A program made the translations under genes and the position numbers. This document shows positions 19,694 to 29,816 of a DNA stretch of 64,000 nt, one piece after another. The notes under the pieces are model-generated. The model worked only from the letters and a program-made list of their open reading frames with translations. It was not told where the DNA came from and made no database searches. The DNA is from Chitinophagaceae bacterium (GTDB lineage: Bacteria; Bacteroidota; Bacteroidia; Chitinophagales; Chitinophagaceae): assembly GCA_947451935.1 (NCBI GenBank), contig CANGBH010000004.1, positions 20,948 through 84,947 on the forward strand, read 5' to 3'. Each line of letters starts with the position of its first letter. Position 1 is the first letter of the stretch.

Positions 19694-19993
19694 CTACTTA
19701 GATTCTGTAGCAACGACTGAATCTAAATTGATTGGTCCGTAAACGTGGGGGAATGTTTGTTCTAATGAAGGAGACCACTCAAATATAAATTGACTTGAAA
19801 GTTTATCGGTATCTATGGTTAGTTGAACCAAGTCACTAACTCCTTTATAATATTTGTCTTTTATGTACTCTACTTGGCTAGCCTCGCAGCAATGTATAAA
19901 GCCTTCGGCATTTAAAGCCGGTGAAGAATAAACACCTTCTGCCTGCGCTTTTTGCCAAGCTTCAGCAGTAGTAATATGATAAATTTTAGCCAT
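19694..19993 (-). CDS. DUF952 family protein
   Basis: IYHITTAEAWQKAQAEGVYSSPALNAEGFIHCCEASQV; last gene in line with aro operon. Confidence 0.85.
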   Translation of the reverse strand: MAKIYHITTAEAWQKAQAEGVYSSPALNAEGFIHCCEASQVEYIKDKYYKGVSDLVQLTIDTDKLSSQFIFEWSPSLEQTFPHVYGPINLDSVVATESK

Positions 19994-20007: not shown

Positions 20008-21003
20008 TTATGAATATACGGGTTTTATATGTTGCGACCGCAACATAAGGTCAGCAAATACAAATGCAGTAACCGCTTCAAGTACTGGTGGCACCCTTAG
20101 CGCAATACATAAATCATGTCTTCCACGAACCGCGAAATTTTCCATTGCATCGGTCTCCCAATTGTATGTATGCTGTTCTTTGGGTGTAGAAGAAGTTGGC
20201 TTAATGGCAATTCTAAAAACAATCTCATTGCCATTAGTAATTCCCCCTATAATTCCACCTGCATGATTCGTAGTTGTTTTACCTTCTTTATTTTCAATGG
20301 AATCGTTATGATCTACTCCAAACATAGAAGCAGCTTTGAATCCTGTACCGAATTCAATACCACGAACGGCTGGAATAGCAAATACAGCGTGTGAAATGAG
20401 TGATTCGGCAGAATCAAAAAATGGCTCACCTAATCCTAAAGGCAATCCATTCACCTTACACTCCACAATACCACCAACAGAATCTTTTTGATCTATCGCT
20501 TTCTGTAATCCAACTTCAACTGAAGACTCCCCACCTATAGAAACTATTTCAGAAACAACAGATATCCCTTTTAATATTTTTTTAGCTACTACTCCAGCTG
20601 CAACAAGACAAAGTGTTAATCGTCCACTAAAATGTCCACCTCCACGAAAATCTTCAAATCCTCCAAATTTTCTATTGGCAACAAAATCAGCATGACCTGG
20701 TCTTGGCACAGCACGCTGCTTTTCATAATCACCAGAACGTGTATTCTTATTTTCAAACAACAGCATTAATGGCGCGCCAGTTGTTTTGCCATTAAATACG
20801 CCACTCTTAAATATTGGTAAATCTTCTTCTTGCCTTGGTGTTGTACCTTTTTGCGTACCACCTTTTCTCCGTTCTGTATCAACAATAAAATCTTCTACAG
20901 CTAGTGGCAATCCAGCAGGACAACCATCAATCACTACACCTAAACCCTCTCCATGCGATTCACCAAAAATAGATACTGAAAAAATCTTTCCGAAATGGTT
21001 CAT
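20008..21003 (-). CDS. aroC: Chorismate synthase
   Basis: FGESHGEGLGVVIDGCPAG, RPGHADFVANRKFGGFEDFRGGGHFSGR. Confidence 0.96.
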   Translation of the reverse strand: MNHFGKIFSVSIFGESHGEGLGVVIDGCPAGLPLAVEDFIVDTERRKGGTQKGTTPRQEEDLPIFKSGVFNGKTTGAPLMLLFENKNTRSGDYEKQRAVPRPGHADFVANRKFGGFEDFRGGGHFSGRLTLCLVAAGVVAKKILKGISVVSEIVSIGGESSVEVGLQKAIDQKDSVGGIVECKVNGLPLGLGEPFFDSAESLISHAVFAIPAVRGIEFGTGFKAASMFGVDHNDSIENKEGKTTTNHAGGIIGGITNGNEIVFRIAIKPTSSTPKEQHTYNWETDAMENFAVRGRHDLCIALRVPPVLEAVTAFVFADLMLRSQHIKPVYS

Positions 21004-21012
21004 GACTATTGT

Positions 21013-22293
21013 TTAATTCGTTTCCAAAGAAATATGAGCACCGAGGGAAATCATATGATGATAAAAATCGGGATATGACTTATTGATTGCTTCCGCATCG
21101 TTTATAATCACAGGTCCATCTGCACACAATGCTGCAACAGCAGCAGCCATGGCAATTCGATGATCATGATGAGAATGAACCTCAGCTCCATTCAAAACAC
21201 TACCACCATGCACATACATCATATCGCCATCTAGTTCAATTTTTATACCCATTTTACCAAAAACATCCTGTAGCGTTAATGCCCTATCGCTTTCTTTATG
21301 GGTCAACCGTTTAGCACCTTTGATTTTTGTTACCCCTTTACAGTAAGCAGCCAATGACACTAATGGTGGAAATAAATCAGGGCACTCAGTTGCATCAAAT
21401 TCAAACGCAACTAATTCGCTTGGGGAAACAACATATTGTCCATCACTATAACTCAAGTTTGCACCAGCAGAGGTAATCGCTTCTAGTATTTTCTTATCCG
21501 CTTGAACAGAATCTGCATTCATTCCTTCAATGACAATTTTGGAAGAAATGGCTCCAGCAACAAATAAGAATGAGGCACCACTCCAATCACCCTCAACGGT
21601 ATAATGAATAATATCAGGTGTAGAATTCTCCGCAGCAGGCCCAAAAGTGAAGGTCGCATAGGAGTCCACAACAGGAAGTTTCATGCCAAACGCCTTAATT
21701 ACCTGCAAGGTCATATCAATATATGGCCTACTTTTTAAGTCTTTTACTTTTATGGTAACGTCAGATGCATTTGAAGCTGAAAAAGCGAATAAAAGTCCAG
21801 TTAAAAACTGAGAACTCAAACTCCCGTCGACCTCAATAGAAGAAGGCACCATCGGCCCCTTAATCTGAATAGGAAGCTTTCCATTGTTAGACGAAATAGC
21901 AATACCCAATTTTGGAAATATCTCATCAAAAAAATGCATTGGCCGATTCATTAATGAGCCTGAACCAGTCAACGTAAGTTGCTGACTACTTATTGAAGCA
22001 ATGGGAGTGAACATCCTTATTCCCAATCCACTTTCCCCACAAAATACAGTATCCTTAACGGGCATAACACCTACACTTGATATTTCAAGATGATCTGTAT
22101 GTTCAATAATTACTGCTCCAAGTTTTTGAATCACATCGATTGCTGCAAGATCATCATTTGAATTACCTGGAGTATAAATCAATGTTTTCCCTACATGAAG
22201 CAAGGAGGCGGCACAAGCGCGTTGCATATCACTTTTAGACCTTGGTGCACTAATGTTTCCATTCAATACGGATGGATTAACTATTGCCTTCAT
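21013..22293 (-). CDS. aroA: 3-phosphoshikimate 1-carboxyvinyltransferase (EPSP synthase)
   Basis: APRSKSDMQRACAASLL, CGESGLGIRMF, HKESDRALTLQDVFGKMG, DHRIAMAAAV. Confidence 0.95.
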   Translation of the reverse strand: MKAIVNPSVLNGNISAPRSKSDMQRACAASLLHVGKTLIYTPGNSNDDLAAIDVIQKLGAVIIEHTDHLEISSVGVMPVKDTVFCGESGLGIRMFTPIASISSQQLTLTGSGSLMNRPMHFFDEIFPKLGIAISSNNGKLPIQIKGPMVPSSIEVDGSLSSQFLTGLLFAFSASNASDVTIKVKDLKSRPYIDMTLQVIKAFGMKLPVVDSYATFTFGPAAENSTPDIIHYTVEGDWSGASFLFVAGAISSKIVIEGMNADSVQADKKILEAITSAGANLSYSDGQYVVSPSELVAFEFDATECPDLFPPLVSLAAYCKGVTKIKGAKRLTHKESDRALTLQDVFGKMGIKIELDGDMMYVHGGSVLNGAEVHSHHDHRIAMAAAVAALCADGPVIINDAEAINKSYPDFYHHMISLGAHISLETN

Positions 22294-22301
22294 TGTATTT
22301 A

Positions 22302-23345
22302 TTACTTAATCATGTTATTAAACTCTACCAAATGGTCATGCAATGCATCAACAGAAATCTTTTGTATTAAACCAGTTCCTATTTTTTGTAATAAAATATA
22401 GCTCATGTCTTTGTTCACACGCTTCTTATCCATCTTCAACACATTAAACACTTTTTTTACATCAAATTTTCCTCTAGTCGGCAATCCATATTCTATCAAT
22501 ACCTTTTCTATTCTATCTGCCCCTTTTAGTCCCACTGCTTTTTCTGAAAGCCATGAAGCGAAAATCATTCCTAATGAAACAGCTTGACCATGCGTCAATT
22601 CGTATTGAGTTTCTAAGGCATGTCCAAGGGTATGACCGAAATTGAGCAACTTTCTATTGCCTGTTTCAAATTCATCCGCTTTAACAACACCCACTTTCAA
22701 TTTTACATTGCGCAGAATAATATCTCTAAGAAGGGATTTGTCACGCTTCACTTTAGCAATATTACTTTTCTCTAACAATGAAAACGTTTTGCTATCCAAT
22801 ATACAAGCATGCTTGATGATCTCAGCAAACCCGTTACTCCATTCTGAATCTGGTAATGTTTTCAAAAAATCAAGATCATAAAACAAAAAAGAGGGTTGAC
22901 GAATCACCCCCACCATGTTTTTATATTCCCCTACATCGATACCGTTTTTACCTCCAATAGAAGCATCTACCATAGCTAATAATGATGTAGGCACAAAACC
23001 AAACTCAATGCCCCTCATATATACCGAAGCGATGTAGCCGGTAAGGTCTGTAATAACTCCGCCTCCAATACCAATTAACGTAGTTTGTCTATCTGCAGAA
23101 AATTCAATTAGCTGATCAATTACTGCGTCCACTGTAGCCTGAACCTTATACTCCTCACCAGCTTTCAAGGTAATTACATTCCACTTCTTGAATTTACTTT
23201 TATGCGCAACAAAAACATTTTCATCAGTAATAATAATCGCCTTCTCTTTGTTTACAATTTGATCAAAATTATTGAATGATGCATCAAAGTAGCAATCGAC
23301 AATTTTCTGTGAAAAACGAAAACGTGTTTTTTTCATACTCGTCAT
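22302..23345 (-). CDS. aroB: 3-dehydroquinate synthase
   Basis: IGIGGGVITDLTGYIASVYMRGIEFGFVPTSLLAMVDASIGGKNGID, LLNFGHTLGHALE. Confidence 0.96.
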   Translation of the reverse strand: MTSMKKTRFRFSQKIVDCYFDASFNNFDQIVNKEKAIIITDENVFVAHKSKFKKWNVITLKAGEEYKVQATVDAVIDQLIEFSADRQTTLIGIGGGVITDLTGYIASVYMRGIEFGFVPTSLLAMVDASIGGKNGIDVGEYKNMVGVIRQPSFLFYDLDFLKTLPDSEWSNGFAEIIKHACILDSKTFSLLEKSNIAKVKRDKSLLRDIILRNVKLKVGVVKADEFETGNRKLLNFGHTLGHALETQYELTHGQAVSLGMIFASWLSEKAVGLKGADRIEKVLIEYGLPTRGKFDVKKVFNVLKMDKKRVNKDMSYILLQKIGTGLIQKISVDALHDHLVEFNNMIK

Positions 23346-23349
23346 ACTA

Positions 23350-23772
23350 TTACTTATCTGTTTTTAAAAAGACTTCGATCTCTGTTTGAAACGTCCTTGT
23401 CAAATGATACTCTTCTTGCCTTTCAATAAATGATGTCACTTGTGCAAGTGAACCAGGACTCACTGAATAAGCAATGATTTCATCAGACCAGTCAAATCCA
23501 GCCTTTATCAATTGAGTCGTGTTTGTCCATTCGGAAGACTCAGAACGCAACAACCTCATAACCTGAGATAAATTCTGGGCAGGATGCAACTGCAATAAAA
23601 GATGAACATGATCTTCGGCTCCATTCACTTCTAATAAATGAATTCCTTTTTCTTCTGCCAGTTTTTTTATGTGACTAAAAAGAACAACCCTTACCGGCCG
23701 TGTTAATACACTTTCCCTGTTTCGAGTTGACCAAATGATGTGCACATATAAAAAAACCTGTACCATGGTCAA
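23350..23772 (-). CDS. Y1 (IS200/RAYT-like) HUH transposase-family protein, apparently lacking the catalytic Tyr
   Basis: VFLYVHIIWSTRNRE, EDHVHLLLQL (HUH), SFIERQEEYHLTRTFQTEIEVFL aligning to typical KYIxNQEEHHxxxTFxEEYLEFL; 4 bp from aroB and 17 bp from the DAHP synthase gene. Confidence 0.85.
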   Translation of the reverse strand: MTMVQVFLYVHIIWSTRNRESVLTRPVRVVLFSHIKKLAEEKGIHLLEVNGAEDHVHLLLQLHPAQNLSQVMRLLRSESSEWTNTTQLIKAGFDWSDEIIAYSVSPGSLAQVTSFIERQEEYHLTRTFQTEIEVFLKTDK

Positions 23773-23789: not shown

Positions 23790-24878
23790 TTAATCGTTCA
23801 TGACTTTATTCTGCCTATTAATACTTTCCATATGGATTGCATCCATGTAGCGCGTTACAAACTCTTCGCTAAGAGAAAGTTTGTCAGCCTTCTTCACAGC
23901 TTTATCCAAAATTTCATTCCAACGATTTGCTTGCAAAATAGTTACATTATTATTCTTCTTGTATGTTCCTATTTTTTCTGCAATATGCATACGCTGAGAA
24001 ATCAACTGCATCAACTCATCATCGATATGATTGATCTGTTCTCTCAACTTATCAAGTGCAATATGGAATGTTTCTGATGAAACATCTTCTCTTCTCCATA
24101 CGATCTCATCCAACATCTCTGCAAGACGCTCAGGAGTAATTTGCTGCTTAGCATCGCTCCATGCATTATCTGGATCGATATGGCTTTCAATCATCAAGCC
24201 ATCAAAATCAAGGTCGATTGCTTTTTGAGCAGTGGCAAGAAGAATATCTCGACGACCACAAATATGAGAAGGGTCATTGATGATTGGCATTCCTGGCATT
24301 CTGCGTTTCATTTCAATCGCTAAATGCCACATTGGAGCATTCCTAAATTCTGTATTACCATAAGAAGAAAAACCACGGTGGATTAATCCAATTTCTTTTA
24401 TACCAGCACGAGCAACACGCTCAACAGCACCTTGCCATAATTCAAGATCAGGGTTGATTGGGTTCTTAATCAACACTGGTACATCTACACCGCGAAGTGC
24501 ATCGGCAACTTCTTGCACACTAAATGGGTTAACTGTTGTTCTAGCACCAACCCATAAAACATCTACGTCAAATGTGAGTGCATCTTCAACTTGCTTTCCT
24601 GTTGCTACTTCTACAGTGGTAGGTAAACCAGTAAGTTTTTTTGCTTGTTGTAACCAAGGCAAACCCTTTGCTCCAATACCTTCAAACATTCCAGGCTTGG
24701 TTCTTGGTTTCCATATACCAGCACGCAACATATCTACTTTACCAGTGTTTGCAAGGCGTTGTGCAGTGGCAAGAACTTGCTCTTCTGTTTCAGCACTGCA
24801 AGGGCCAGAAATAATAAGAGGACGTTTATTCCAAGCTGCTTTTACAATTGATTGATGACTTTCTTGTGTTGTTTCCAT
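23790..24878 (-). CDS. Bifunctional 3-deoxy-7-phosphoheptulonate synthase / chorismate mutase
   Basis: IISGPCSAETEEQV, RAGIWKPRTKPGMFEGIG, NDPSHICGRRD; C-terminal type II chorismate mutase LREQINHIDDELMQLISQRMHIAEKIG. Confidence 0.95.
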   Translation of the reverse strand: METTQESHQSIVKAAWNKRPLIISGPCSAETEEQVLATAQRLANTGKVDMLRAGIWKPRTKPGMFEGIGAKGLPWLQQAKKLTGLPTTVEVATGKQVEDALTFDVDVLWVGARTTVNPFSVQEVADALRGVDVPVLIKNPINPDLELWQGAVERVARAGIKEIGLIHRGFSSYGNTEFRNAPMWHLAIEMKRRMPGMPIINDPSHICGRRDILLATAQKAIDLDFDGLMIESHIDPDNAWSDAKQQITPERLAEMLDEIVWRREDVSSETFHIALDKLREQINHIDDELMQLISQRMHIAEKIGTYKKNNNVTILQANRWNEILDKAVKKADKLSLSEEFVTRYMDAIHMESINRQNKVMND

Positions 24879-24918: not shown

Positions 24919-25773
24919 CTAATGAATGATCCTTCGGATCTGATTTGCTTTTTCCATTAACTCGTGAAGATATTCCCAGTTCTCTTTCTCTAAACAAGAT
25001 TTAAATTTTCTCAGCTGCATGATGTGCTCATTCAATACATCCAGAATGTTATCCTTGTTTTGCTTTAAAATTGGTGTCCACATATCTGGGCTACTCTTTG
25101 CCAACCTTACGGTACTCTCAAATCCTGCACTAGCCATTTCAAAAATGGCACTATCTTCTTTTTCCTTTTCAAGCACGGTGTTTGCCAAGGCGAATGAAGT
25201 GATATGAGATATATGACTAACGTATGCAGCATGAAGATCATGATCGTGTGCATCCATCTCGAAAATGCGCATATTCAAATTGCCGAAAAGTAATTTAGCA
25301 TAGGCAATGGCCTCATCACTACTATCCTGAGCATCACAAATAATCACTGATTTATCTTCGAATGCGCCTTCTACCGCTGCAGTAGGACCACTATATTCTG
25401 TTCCCCACATAGGATGTGCAGCGACAAACTGACTCCGCTTTGGATGGCCTTTTACTTTATCGATCAATAAACTTTTTGTAGAACCTAAATCGATAACTAT
25501 TTGCTGATCAATTAAGTCAAGTATTTTAGGCACAAGCGTTATCATACTATCAACCGGAATAGCAACTAGAATAACATCCGATTTTGAAATGGCGTCTTCC
25601 ATGCTCAACATTTCATCAACAAGATGAAGTGCGATGGCTTGCTCAGCATGAAGCGGGTTATTGTCAATACCAACAACATGGTTTGATATGCCCTTTTTCT
25701 TACACTGAAGTGCAAGTGAGCCACCAATCAAACCAACTCCAACTATCGCAATATTTTTTTTATCTATATTCAT
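24919..25773 (-). CDS. tyrA: Prephenate dehydrogenase
   Basis: IAIVGVGLIGGSLALQCKKKG, AAHPMWGTEYSGP, HDHDLHAAYVSHISHI. Confidence 0.93.
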   Translation of the reverse strand: MNIDKKNIAIVGVGLIGGSLALQCKKKGISNHVVGIDNNPLHAEQAIALHLVDEMLSMEDAISKSDVILVAIPVDSMITLVPKILDLIDQQIVIDLGSTKSLLIDKVKGHPKRSQFVAAHPMWGTEYSGPTAAVEGAFEDKSVIICDAQDSSDEAIAYAKLLFGNLNMRIFEMDAHDHDLHAAYVSHISHITSFALANTVLEKEKEDSAIFEMASAGFESTVRLAKSSPDMWTPILKQNKDNILDVLNEHIMQLRKFKSCLEKENWEYLHELMEKANQIRRIIH

Positions 25774-25842: not shown

Positions 25843-27024
25843 CTATTCTTTTATCTTCTTCACTCTATTGATAGCTTCCTGTAAAATCTCTTCTTTGCTG
25901 CATAAACTCACACGCACAAAAGAATCACCAGCATCACCAAAAATTCCTCCAGGCGTAATGAATACACGGGCTTCATTCAACACTTTATCACTCAACTCGT
26001 ATCCAGACTTAAATTCACTTGGAATAGCAGCCCACACAAACATACCAACTTGATCTTTGGCATATGAGCATCCAAGTAAATCAAGTAACTCACATGCCAA
26101 TTTTTTTCTATCCGAGTAAACCTGATTAATATTGTCAAACCAGTCCTTGCCCAACTCTAACGCTTTAGATGCCGCAAGTTGAACAGGCAAAAACATACCA
26201 CTATCCATATTGCTTTTAAACCTCAAGATGGCATTGATATGTTCCGCAGAAGCAACAATCATCCCAACACGCCAACCCGCCATATTGTGTGATTTGCTCA
26301 ACGAGTTAAGTTCAATGACTACTTCTTTATCGATATCATACTCCAACAAACTTGTTGGATGATTATTCAAAATAAAACTGTATGGATTATCATGTACGAT
26401 CATTACTTTTTCGCGCTTTGCAAAAGCAATAATTTCGCTCAATAATTTTTTATCAGGAAGTTGACCAGTAGGCATATGAGGGTAATTGAGAAAAATAATT
26501 TTCACAACACCTTGTCCCTTTGCATTATACTCATCAATCATTTTCTTCCAAACGGCTAAATCTGGATGCCAATTATTTTCAGATTCAAGTCGATATGAAA
26601 GTACCGTACCTCCAGAAAGCTTGACAGCACTACTATATGTTGGATAACCAGGATTTGGAACAAATGCAGCATCGCCTTCCTGAAGATAAGTCATGCATAT
26701 ATGCATGACCCCTTCTTTACTTCCTATCAACGGAAGCACCTCAGTATCTGGATTCACCAAAACAGTATACCATTTTTTATACCATGCAGATATTGCATTT
26801 CGAAATATAGGTGAACCTTTATACGATTGGTAGGCATGAGTATTTTGCTTTTCCGCTTCCGTGTGTAATGCTTCAACCACAGATGGATGAGGTGGAAGAT
26901 CAGGACTGCCAATACCCAAATTAATTACTGCATGCCCTGTCTTATTAAGCTCATCGATTTCTCGAAGCTTAGTAGAGAAATAATATTCTCCAATTCCATT
27001 TAATCTAGATGATACCGGTATCAT
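25843..27024 (-). CDS. Class I/II PLP aminotransferase (aromatic/prephenate context)
   Basis: VINLGIGSPDLPPHPSV, NPGYPTYSSAVKLSGG, SLSKSHNMAGWRVG; overlaps pheA by 4 bp. Confidence 0.92.
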   Translation of the reverse strand: MIPVSSRLNGIGEYYFSTKLREIDELNKTGHAVINLGIGSPDLPPHPSVVEALHTEAEKQNTHAYQSYKGSPIFRNAISAWYKKWYTVLVNPDTEVLPLIGSKEGVMHICMTYLQEGDAAFVPNPGYPTYSSAVKLSGGTVLSYRLESENNWHPDLAVWKKMIDEYNAKGQGVVKIIFLNYPHMPTGQLPDKKLLSEIIAFAKREKVMIVHDNPYSFILNNHPTSLLEYDIDKEVVIELNSLSKSHNMAGWRVGMIVASAEHINAILRFKSNMDSGMFLPVQLAASKALELGKDWFDNINQVYSDRKKLACELLDLLGCSYAKDQVGMFVWAAIPSEFKSGYELSDKVLNEARVFITPGGIFGDAGDSFVRVSLCSKEEILQEAINRVKKIKE

Positions 27025-27911
27025 GAGGCTGAATTAAATTTTCCTTTTTTATAAATACCCAATACACGCATGTACTTTGTTTTGGCCGTCAACTTTTTCA
27101 GAAGTGAATTGAATTTCTTTAATGATTCAAATTCAAGGTCTGCATGAAAACCATATTTAAATTGACTGCCAGCAATTGGGAATGACTGCAGCTTAGAAAT
27201 GTTTATGTCTTCCGCAGCAATGAGGGAGAGCACTTTCGCAAGACTACCCTTCTCATGATCGGTATGAAAATTGATGGATGCTTTATCTGCACCTTCGATA
27301 ACAGAAGGATGCTGTTGCAACACCAAAAAACGCGTATAATTATGCTTTACGTCGTTTATTTTAGGAGCAATCAATTCAAGGTCAAACATCTCCGCAGCCA
27401 GCTTACTAGCAATAGCTGCAACATGCTTGCTCTTCTTAAGATGAACATGCTTTGCACTCAATGCAGTATCATCCGTCTCAATTAACGTCCAAGGATACTT
27501 GTTTAAAAAACCAAGGCATTGCTGAAGTGCCATAGGATGCGAATGAACCTCTTTAATATCAGACAACTTCACACCAGGATTCACCATTAAATTTTGATCA
27601 ATTTGGAGGTAAACTTCACCCGCTACAAAAAGAGATGACTTTTGCAATAAGTTATAATTAGGAAGTATACTACCCGCGATAGAATTTTCAATCGCCATAA
27701 TACCACCGCTAGTCTTTTTAGAATCTGAAGCGTCTCGAATAAGATCGATGAAAGTAGCACATGGAAGGATTTCAACATTTTTACCATAGAACTTACGAGC
27801 AGCGACTTGATGAAAACTGCCTTCATAGCCCTGAATAGCAATAGGTTTTGGAGTAGCCGACTTGGACGGCTTTTCCAGATTGCGAAGTTTACTATTTTTC
27901 TTTTCGGACAT
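27021..27911 (-). CDS. pheA: Prephenate dehydratase
   Basis: IQGYEGSFHQVAARKFYG, GIMAIENSIAGSILPNYNLL, HSHPMALQQC, NYTRFLVL; ACT domain (KASINFHTDHEKGSLAKVLSLIAAEDINISKLQSFPI). Confidence 0.94.
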   Translation of the reverse strand: MSEKKNSKLRNLEKPSKSATPKPIAIQGYEGSFHQVAARKFYGKNVEILPCATFIDLIRDASDSKKTSGGIMAIENSIAGSILPNYNLLQKSSLFVAGEVYLQIDQNLMVNPGVKLSDIKEVHSHPMALQQCLGFLNKYPWTLIETDDTALSAKHVHLKKSKHVAAIASKLAAEMFDLELIAPKINDVKHNYTRFLVLQQHPSVIEGADKASINFHTDHEKGSLAKVLSLIAAEDINISKLQSFPIAGSQFKYGFHADLEFESLKKFNSLLKKLTAKTKYMRVLGIYKKGKFNSAS

Positions 27912-27926
27912 CGTTCATTTACGATT

Positions 27927-27958
27927 TAAAAAAAAATCCCGGTAGTGTTACCGGGATT
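27927..27958 (-). terminator. Intrinsic terminator of the pheA-operon leader (attenuator)
   Basis: Minus strand AATCCCGGTA-ACAC-TACCGGGATT followed by TTTTTTTT; 10-bp perfect stem just upstream of pheA ATG. Confidence 0.93.
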
Positions 27959-27988
27959 CTTATGTTGATATATCTTGTTATTATTTGT

Positions 27989-28060
27989 TCAACAAAGAGA
28001 TCCCGTACTACCGGTAAAGTAGTAGTAAAAATAAAAACGGGCTGTCTTTGGCATGTTCAT
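27989..28060 (-). CDS. Aromatic-operon leader peptide MNMPKTARFYFYYYFTGSTGSLC
   Basis: ATG AAC ATG CCA AAG ACA GCC CGT TTT TAT TTT TAC TAC TAC TTT ACC GGT AGT ACG GGA TCT CTT TGT TGA on minus strand; seven consecutive Phe/Tyr codons; downstream terminator precedes pheA. Confidence 0.9.
   Translation of the reverse strand: MNMPKTARFYFYYYFTGSTGSLC
28000..28014 (-). promoter_or_regulatory. Predicted antiterminator segment (pairs with terminator arms)
   Basis: Minus-strand CCGGTAGTACGGGAT complementary to ATCCCG and ACTACCGG within the terminator hairpin. Confidence 0.75.
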
Positions 28061-28100
28061 GAAACAAATATAAGAAACTGAATGTAGTTAAACAATATTT

Positions 28101-29816
28101 TTAATAATTATTTCTAGACCCACCCGTTTCAGCGTCGTTCATCCTAATTCTTCTTCCTTTGAATTTTTTACCGTCAAGCGACTTAATCATTTGATTCGCT
28201 GCTCCTCCTTCGATCTCAACCCAGCTATTCATATCCTTCATGTCGATCTTACCCAATACATCCTTACTAAGATCACTCATGTCTAATATAAACTGCAAAA
28301 AGCTAGCCTTATAGAAACCATCTTTGGTACCTAAGTTCACAAATAATTTTTTATAGCCTCCCGAAGAGCCACTTGATCCGCCAGCTCTGCGTTCAGAACC
28401 CCCTTCTCTTTCAAAAGAGCTTCGGCCTACTGTACGACCTTGACTTCGAGAGTCGCCACGTGAGGAAGACTGCCTATCTGAACGCCTGTCATCCCTCATG
28501 TTGAGGTCTGCTGCATTTTCATAATACTGAAGGAAACGATCAAATTCAAGCGCAGCAACACGTTGAAGAATTTCTTCTTTCGTTACATCCTCAAATTTTT
28601 CTTTCAATAAAGGAATATAGGTTTCGTATTCACCATGACTAATATCTGCTTTGAGTAGCTTATCTATGAAATGGAAAAACTGCTTACGGCATACATCCTT
28701 TCCAGATGGAATATCCATCTTGTGCAAACTATTGTTAATCAATTTCTCAATTTGCCTAAGCCTATATTGCTCACGAGATGTAACCAATGAAATACAAACA
28801 CCATTCTTACCAGCACGACCAGTACGACCACTTCTATGGGTATATACCTCAACATCATCTGGTAGCTCATAATTAATAACGTGTGAAATGTCTTTCACGT
28901 CAATACCCCTTGCTGCTACATCAGTAGCAATCAACAATTGGATACTTTTTTCCCTGAACCTACCCATTACTTTATCACGCTGAACTTGGGTTAAATCACC
29001 ATGAATGGCTTCAATATCATACCCTTCTCGAATAAGTGATTCGGTAATAGATTGTGCATCCGCCTTTGTTCTGGTGAAAATAATCCCATAAATACCTGGA
29101 TTAAAATCAATGATTCGCTTTAGGGTTTGATATCGGTTAACCCCGGAGGTTACATAATACTGATGATCAATATTCACATTGGCTGCATTCATTTTGCCAA
29201 TGGTGATTTCATGGGGCTTATCCATATAGCGTTTGCTCACTTGCTTCACTTCTGGTGGCATAGTGGCACTGAACAACCAAATACTTTTTCTATTGGGAGA
29301 ATTTTTCAAGATAAATTCGATGTCATCACGGAATCCCATGTTAAGCATCTCATCTGCCTCGTCTAAAACGATATATTCTATATTTTCTAGGTCAATTGCC
29401 TTCCTTTCAATCAAATCAATCAATCGACCAGGTGTAGCAACAACGACCTGTGCACCTTGTCTTAAATCGCGAATTTGCTGGGAAATGGATGCACCACCAT
29501 ATACCGCAACCATTTTGGTACCTTTTTTATAGCGGCCGAAATTCATCAAATCTTTTGTGATTTGCATACATAACTCACGGGTTGGACAAACCATGAGGGC
29601 TACAGGTGATTTAGCCTTAGAATCAACCAATTGTAGCAGGGGGAGACCAAATGCAGCTGTTTTACCCGTACCCGTCTGCGCCAATCCCACAAAATCTTTA
29701 GTCCCACTTAATAAAATAGGTATCGCTTGTTCCTGTATTGGTGTAGGTTCAGTAAAACCAAGTGCTTTTATGCCTTGGAGCAATATCTCTTCAATGCCTA
29801 ACTCTTCAAAACTCAT
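28101..29816 (-). CDS. DEAD-box ATP-dependent RNA helicase with DbpA-like C-terminal RNA-binding domain
   Basis: AQTGTGKTA, PTRELC, DEADEMLNMGF, SATMP, HRSGRTGRAG; RS/RG-rich linker then KLFVNLGTKDGFYKASFLQFI. Confidence 0.95.
   Translation of the reverse strand: MSFEELGIEEILLQGIKALGFTEPTPIQEQAIPILLSGTKDFVGLAQTGTGKTAAFGLPLLQLVDSKAKSPVALMVCPTRELCMQITKDLMNFGRYKKGTKMVAVYGGASISQQIRDLRQGAQVVVATPGRLIDLIERKAIDLENIEYIVLDEADEMLNMGFRDDIEFILKNSPNRKSIWLFSATMPPEVKQVSKRYMDKPHEITIGKMNAANVNIDHQYYVTSGVNRYQTLKRIIDFNPGIYGIIFTRTKADAQSITESLIREGYDIEAIHGDLTQVQRDKVMGRFREKSIQLLIATDVAARGIDVKDISHVINYELPDDVEVYTHRSGRTGRAGKNGVCISLVTSREQYRLRQIEKLINNSLHKMDIPSGKDVCRKQFFHFIDKLLKADISHGEYETYIPLLKEKFEDVTKEEILQRVAALEFDRFLQYYENAADLNMRDDRRSDRQSSSRGDSRSQGRTVGRSSFEREGGSERRAGGSSGSSGGYKKLFVNLGTKDGFYKASFLQFILDMSDLSKDVLGKIDMKDMNSWVEIEGGAANQMIKSLDGKKFKGRRIRMNDAETGGSRNNY

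Follow-up and report, generated by a model that had tools for sequence, protein, structure and literature searches.

Little is known of how Bacteroidota control their synthesis of amino acids. A comparative paper on attenuators from 2004 reportedly mentions Bacteroidetes/Chlorobi. According to a 2010 survey, leader-peptide systems had by then been demonstrated in no groups other than Proteobacteria and Actinobacteria (PMC2965389). In a 2021 study of Flavobacterium psychrophilum, transcriptomes revealed ahead of pheA a structured 5' element which is conserved in Flavobacteriaceae and has no Rfam hit, and the study gave clues to leader-peptide attenuation before amino-acid operons (PMC9723704). 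The idea of attenuation in Bacteroidota is therefore not new, and earlier descriptions may exist beyond the open-access literature; what is added here is the anatomy of such a switch, its covariation, its Phe/Tyr composition and its breadth. Another candidate cis-regulatory RNA of Bacteroidetes, the Bacteroid-trp RNA (RF01692, PMC2864571), bears a name that points to trp genes and so to a different amino acid. In Streptomyces lividans translation of the trpL, ilvL and leuL leader peptides begins right at the 5' end of the mRNA (PMC8079986), an arrangement which we propose here as well, although in a different phylum, for different amino acids and from the position of a promoter.

The window, the whole stretch of DNA that was analysed, comprises 64,000 nucleotides of a Chitinophagaceae genome, for which named relatives point to a position within or close to that family of Bacteroidota, and all features described below lie on its minus strand. 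Ahead of pheA we have found a set of elements that very probably forms a ribosome-mediated transcription attenuator, one that would sense charged tRNA-Phe and tRNA-Tyr and gate the genes for pheA, an aminotransferase, tyrA, a DAHPS/chorismate mutase, aroB, aroA and aroC. Like the enterobacterial pheL (RF01859)/trpL class, the locus has a Phe-rich leader ORF, alternative hairpins and a U-rich terminator before pheA, and is proposed to act by stall-dependent antitermination. Unlike that class, it mixes Phe and Tyr codons, its antiterminator strand overlaps the leader end and stop codon, its transcript probably starts leaderless at a TAnnTTTG promoter, and its predicted control takes in the Phe and Tyr branches, DAHPS and aroBAC. 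Scored against RF01859 (Phe_leader), the window locus reached 31.3 bits (E 0.0011), which is below the gathering score of 55, and it is thus not a Phe_leader member. Neither the window nor 19 other loci gave a gathering-level Rfam match, whether to a T-box or to another catalogued riboswitch; no T-box was present among the lax matches, and Bacteroid-trp gave no match either at gathering level or with E relaxed to 10. The pheA element of Flavobacteriaceae shares phylum, gene and want of an Rfam hit with the present locus, and when set beside it by description is likely the same element; for pheA, the main text of that study gives no leader peptide, antiterminator or covariation (PMC9723704). 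As far as sequence can speak, there is good support for adding the locus, which has some traits of its own, to the ribosome-mediated attenuators as a new member.

The predicted target is an operon that opens with pheA (27021-27911), encoding a prephenate dehydratase-ACT protein (Pfam PF00800), the end of which overlaps by 4 nt a class I/II aminotransferase gene (25843-27024, PF00155). These are followed by tyrA, prephenate dehydrogenase (24919-25773, PF02153/PF20463), a DAHP synthase fused to chorismate mutase (23790-24878, PF00793 and PF01817), aroB, 3-dehydroquinate synthase (22302-23345, PF01761/PF24621), aroA, EPSP synthase (21013-22293, PF00275), and aroC, chorismate synthase (20008-21003, PF01264), with a DUF952 gene (19694-19993, PF06108) at the operon's end. 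The first-pass annotation had eight aromatic genes under this control; Pfam gives seven, together with the DUF952 gene and an IS200-like (Y1_Tnp) transposase ORF inside the operon (23350-23772, PF01797). The order of the seven aromatic genes was identical in 11 family members for which the whole stretch was sampled, the contig of a twelfth stopping in aroB, and the DUF952 gene adjoins aroC in 7 of the 11 relatives with a stretch extending past aroC. The Y1_Tnp ORF is found at the equal position, between DAHPS/CM and aroB, in 5 of 12 family members with 37-78% identity, which suggests its long-term retention and not a fresh insertion.

The leader ORF, MNMPKTARFYFYYYFTGSTGSLC, has 23 codons (27989-28060) and carries seven consecutive Phe/Tyr codons, FYFYYYF (28016-28036), as the putative sensor. 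One such run was present in the window against 0.02 expected by chance. The 2.56-Mb genome contains four exact matches to a run of seven F/Y codons, of which two overlap, and the remaining runs were rejected as leaders. The positions given in the first-pass annotation for the ORF, the aromatic run, the hairpin with its U-tract and the segment CCGGTAGTACGGGAT (28014-28000) were all confirmed in the sequence. A short F/Y-rich ORF precedes pheA in all 80 named relatives and in 28 of 30 same-genus loci, the other two being cut at a contig end, and the terminator lies behind it wherever the DNA allows. These two sets overlap; collapsed, they leave 70 distinct sequences, mostly of Chitinophagaceae, and the layout of leader, terminator and pheA is kept in every relative with enough upstream DNA. 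Two of the relatives appear, when read by eye, to start their leader with GTG. No family in NCBIfam or Pfam was found for the leader peptide, and as gene callers skip this small ORF and the terminator, their recognition would also be a gain for annotation.

It might be that attenuation is real and senses one amino acid alone, Phe or Tyr, the codons for the other being bystanders which, for example, keep the sensor unstructured. UUY and UAY codons are both A/U-rich, and the order and ratio of F to Y differ among the leaders of the relatives, as such an arrangement would allow. Nonetheless, both residues occur in all 69 leaders, which on average have 26 residues with 5.1 Phe and 4.0 Tyr codons, and the operon itself makes Phe and Tyr, and hence we consider sensing of a single amino acid unlikely and dual sensing of Phe and Tyr the better account.

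The intrinsic terminator, formed by segments C and D with the U-tract behind them (27928-27961), can be written AAUCCCGGUA-ACAC-UACCGGGAUU. The 10-bp perfect hairpin described in the first-pass annotation is indeed present before the pheA ATG (27958-27935), with two small corrections: with extra pairs it can be counted as 13 bp (27961-27932), and the T run behind GGGA is 9 long (27936-27928), two of its residues pairing within the 10-bp stem. The pheA ATG, at 27911, follows 16 nt after the end of the hairpin, and the leader region folds with a z of -4.1 against dinucleotide shuffles. Pairing was followed in a sequence-only alignment (A3) of the 70 relatives remaining once sequences more than 90% alike had been collapsed. 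RNAalifold run on A3 recovered the terminator alone, as is expected of mutually exclusive helices.

The helix proposed to compete with the terminator joins segment B, CGGGAUCUCUUUGUUGA (27989-28005), which includes the leader stop codon, to segment C, UCAACAUAAGAAUCCCG (27952-27968), the partner of either B or D. When the nascent RNA was folded as it would be before the 3' arm of the terminator is made, CGGGAU-c-UCUU-UGUUGA (28005-27989) paired with UCAACA-u-AAGA-AUCCCG (27968-27952). In A3 the 13 pairs tested in B:C were formed in 87.8% of cases, against at most 47.7% when the strands were slid. Two-sided changes were seen at 9 of the 13 B:C pairs (3.6 in shuffles, with none of 500 shuffles as high) and at 6 of 9 terminator pairs (1 of 500 shuffles as high), these shuffle counts not being probabilities since the aligned sequences share kinship. 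Among such changes, the leader stop UGA becomes UAA (UGUUGA to UGUUAA) coupled to a change of UCAACA to UUAACA in 15 sequences, which fall into two or more distinct clades in a tree of pheA, and in two relatives (L022, L029) the RNA UUGUUGA is retained where the leader frame continues through it and UGA is not a stop. B:C duplexes between a species' own partners were stronger than in all 5000 permutations among species, and in 69 of 69 leaders they exceeded the average strength of synonymous recodings (at the window locus on its own, p 0.11). In each of the 21 loci tested beyond the close relatives, B:C exceeded the shuffled mean in strength, with a mean z of -3.9. The first-pass annotation had held that the leader segment behind the aromatic codons is complementary to both arms of the terminator; of this, CGGGAT:ATCCCG stands as half of the covarying B:C helix, the UGUUGA:UCAACA half having been missed so that the antiterminator is longer than was then described, and CCGGTAGT:ACTACCGG is not conserved. 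This latter pairing, with the 3' arm of the terminator, was rejected as a general feature, being found in A3 only here and in the closest relatives. Relatives lacking both the leader ORF and compensatory base changes, which had been named in advance as evidence against attenuation, were looked for and the opposite was found, the leader being universal in the family and both B:C and C:D covarying.

A box with the sequence TATATTTG (28065-28072) lies 4 nt upstream of the leader ATG and matches the consensus TAnnTTTG, which sits at -7 in Bacteroidota (PMC7366714). Given this position, the transcript should begin on the leader start codon itself or a few nt ahead of it, and a leaderless start of the pheA leader transcript is probable from the promoter position. 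In 65 of the 70 relatives, the motif TAnnTT[TC]G ends 4-12 nt ahead of the leader start, a count in which the box doubled as tie-break between alternative leader ATGs, against a background of 6e-5 per position, or an expectation of about 0.001 for each sequence. Few mRNAs of the phylum are leaderless: in B. thetaiotaomicron 3.7% of 5' UTRs are shorter than 10 nt (PMC7366714), and for F. psychrophilum the transcriptome study gives 5.5% leaderless (PMC9723704).

The position of the locus also has to be considered, as a same-strand DEAD-box helicase gene ends at 28101, only 40 nt upstream of the leader, and helicase transcripts would meet the terminator too. The hairpin could accordingly be a mere terminator of the helicase gene, with the F/Y ORF fortuitous and pheA expressed from its own promoter or by read-through. 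This is very improbable, since a plain terminator would need neither the B:C covariation nor a family-wide leader ORF, and the -7 box stands just ahead of the leader in nearly all of the relatives. A further pairing, between segment B and the first leader codons, or segment A (28037-28050), was absent from the first-pass annotation and in Chitinophagaceae would complete the classical 1:2, 2:3 and 3:4 logic, A, B and C being segments 1, 2 and 3. The energy of A:B with its own partner was better than in all 5000 permutations among species, and in 65 of 69 leaders it surpassed the average of synonymous recodings (window locus, 0/200). Outside Chitinophagaceae, A:B was mostly no better than shuffled. 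At equilibrium without a ribosome, A:B does not outcompete B:C, for which the mean fraction was 0.77, so that basal control without translation would hinge on folding kinetics. Because of this and of its weakness outside the family, we treat A:B as a feature of Chitinophagaceae, for which there is moderate support, and B:C and C:D as the predicted core of the switch. It is scarcely credible that the leader serves to make a functional micropeptide and that its RNA structures are a by-product, as the peptide motifs that recur, KAYR ahead of the aromatic run and PG or TG behind it, coincide with segments A and B, where the codons in use give better pairing than synonymous recodings do, and the length, frame and C-terminus of the leader vary (TGSLC, RPGLLLLTAN or SSRVVFVKA before the stop).

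Ribosome-mediated attenuation, as put forward in the first-pass annotation, is strongly supported, on comparative grounds, by the conserved mixed Phe/Tyr leader and the covarying terminator and antiterminator, and the geometry of the leader is suitable for it. With transcription beginning on the leader ATG or no more than a few nt away from it, shortage of Phe or Tyr would cause the leading ribosome to stall on the FYFYYYF codons, where it would mask A and leave B, at the 3' end of the leader, free. Free B would then pair with C, blocking the C:D terminator and allowing the operon to be transcribed. When Phe and Tyr are plentiful, the ribosome would reach the stop codon inside B and mask it, and the terminator would be expected to form and to end transcription. 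Assuming a ribosome footprint of 15 nt on either side of the first P-site nt, stalls on 576 of 596 aromatic codons keep the CGGGA part of B free, and a ribosome at the leader stop overlaps UGUUGA of B in 67 of 68 cases and CGGGA in 37 of 69. Where the leader end is extended, the ribosome at the stop covers UGUUGA but not CGGGA. At the window locus the computed antiterminator fraction was 0.63 for a stall on the first aromatic codon and 0.62 for one on the last, and dropped to 0.0 once the ribosome was at the stop. Computed folding and geometry, at this locus and in the relatives, hence agree with the earlier proposal that a stall on early codons frees the segment and a ribosome at the stop codon masks it.

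A covariance model (R1) was built from A3 and found one full-length strong element in its own genome; its other matches there were bare terminator-like or partial and were set aside. Across the class, significant R1 matches occurred in many families, the best ones mostly before pheA, so that pheA leaders are found in other families of the class. Weak matches away from pheA (L138, L142, L145, L146) were taken as bare terminators or chance and excluded from the count. Phe/Tyr leaders were found before 22 of 30 sampled pheA (prephenate dehydratase) loci across the class, two of them (L171, L162) being the weakest, and none was found in the other eight, of which four have pheA directly behind another gene and four belong to one family. 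In that family (f33; L159, L160, L165 and L176), neither an F/Y leader nor a terminator is present upstream of pheA, an apparent loss. The full element is also found upstream of pheA in at least one genome outside the class Bacteroidia (L205), where an F/Y leader and terminator precede a pheA 53% identical to that of the window, and may there be ancestral or transferred. The design is conserved across much of Bacteroidota, where it is nearly unstudied, and provides, with exact pairing partners named, a concrete predicted switch for Phe, Tyr and chorismate synthesis in much of the phylum. In its broadest form the proposal would be that of a Bacteroidota attenuator which is of ancient origin, extends through most of the class and is specific for Phe and Tyr together, gating the chorismate pathway and both terminal branches and having, in Chitinophagaceae, a leaderless transcript and a stop codon often within the switching helix; we put this forward tentatively, as a reading on which we are nearly evenly divided.

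Several further leaders were seen beside the pheA element. In two loci of one family (L134 and L140, family f37), at about 1501-1649, a separate F/Y leader (MLITAAIYFTFFYFYFRSQNRIGAVYC...) and terminator lie before a DAHP synthase gene and not pheA. In another family (f71), a pheA gene is preceded by tandem F/Y-rich leader ORFs, MLQTRFFFGYYYFYAAA and MVPTQQVFFTYGYYFFYLKKPARCCQC, each with a terminator-like hairpin behind it. The genome of the window itself contains, just upstream of hisG, a candidate leader for His, MITNTHIHHHFLQTR, with a hairpin and U-rich tract behind it, as well as a leader-like ORF with a single Trp codon, MNTINISNNGWHTYSSLG, followed by a terminator, AAAGCCCCGATCATTCGGGGCTTTTGTTTTT, before trpE, for which no match at Rfam gathering score was obtained. 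The presence of these candidates for His and Trp in the genome that carries the pheA element suggests a general attenuation toolkit in Bacteroidota. Finally, Chitinophagaceae-like pheA loci were present on public contigs titled Williamsia sp. (JADCRZ010000042.1) and Sphingobacterium thalpophilum (CAMBYC010000006.1), and these titles look misassigned.
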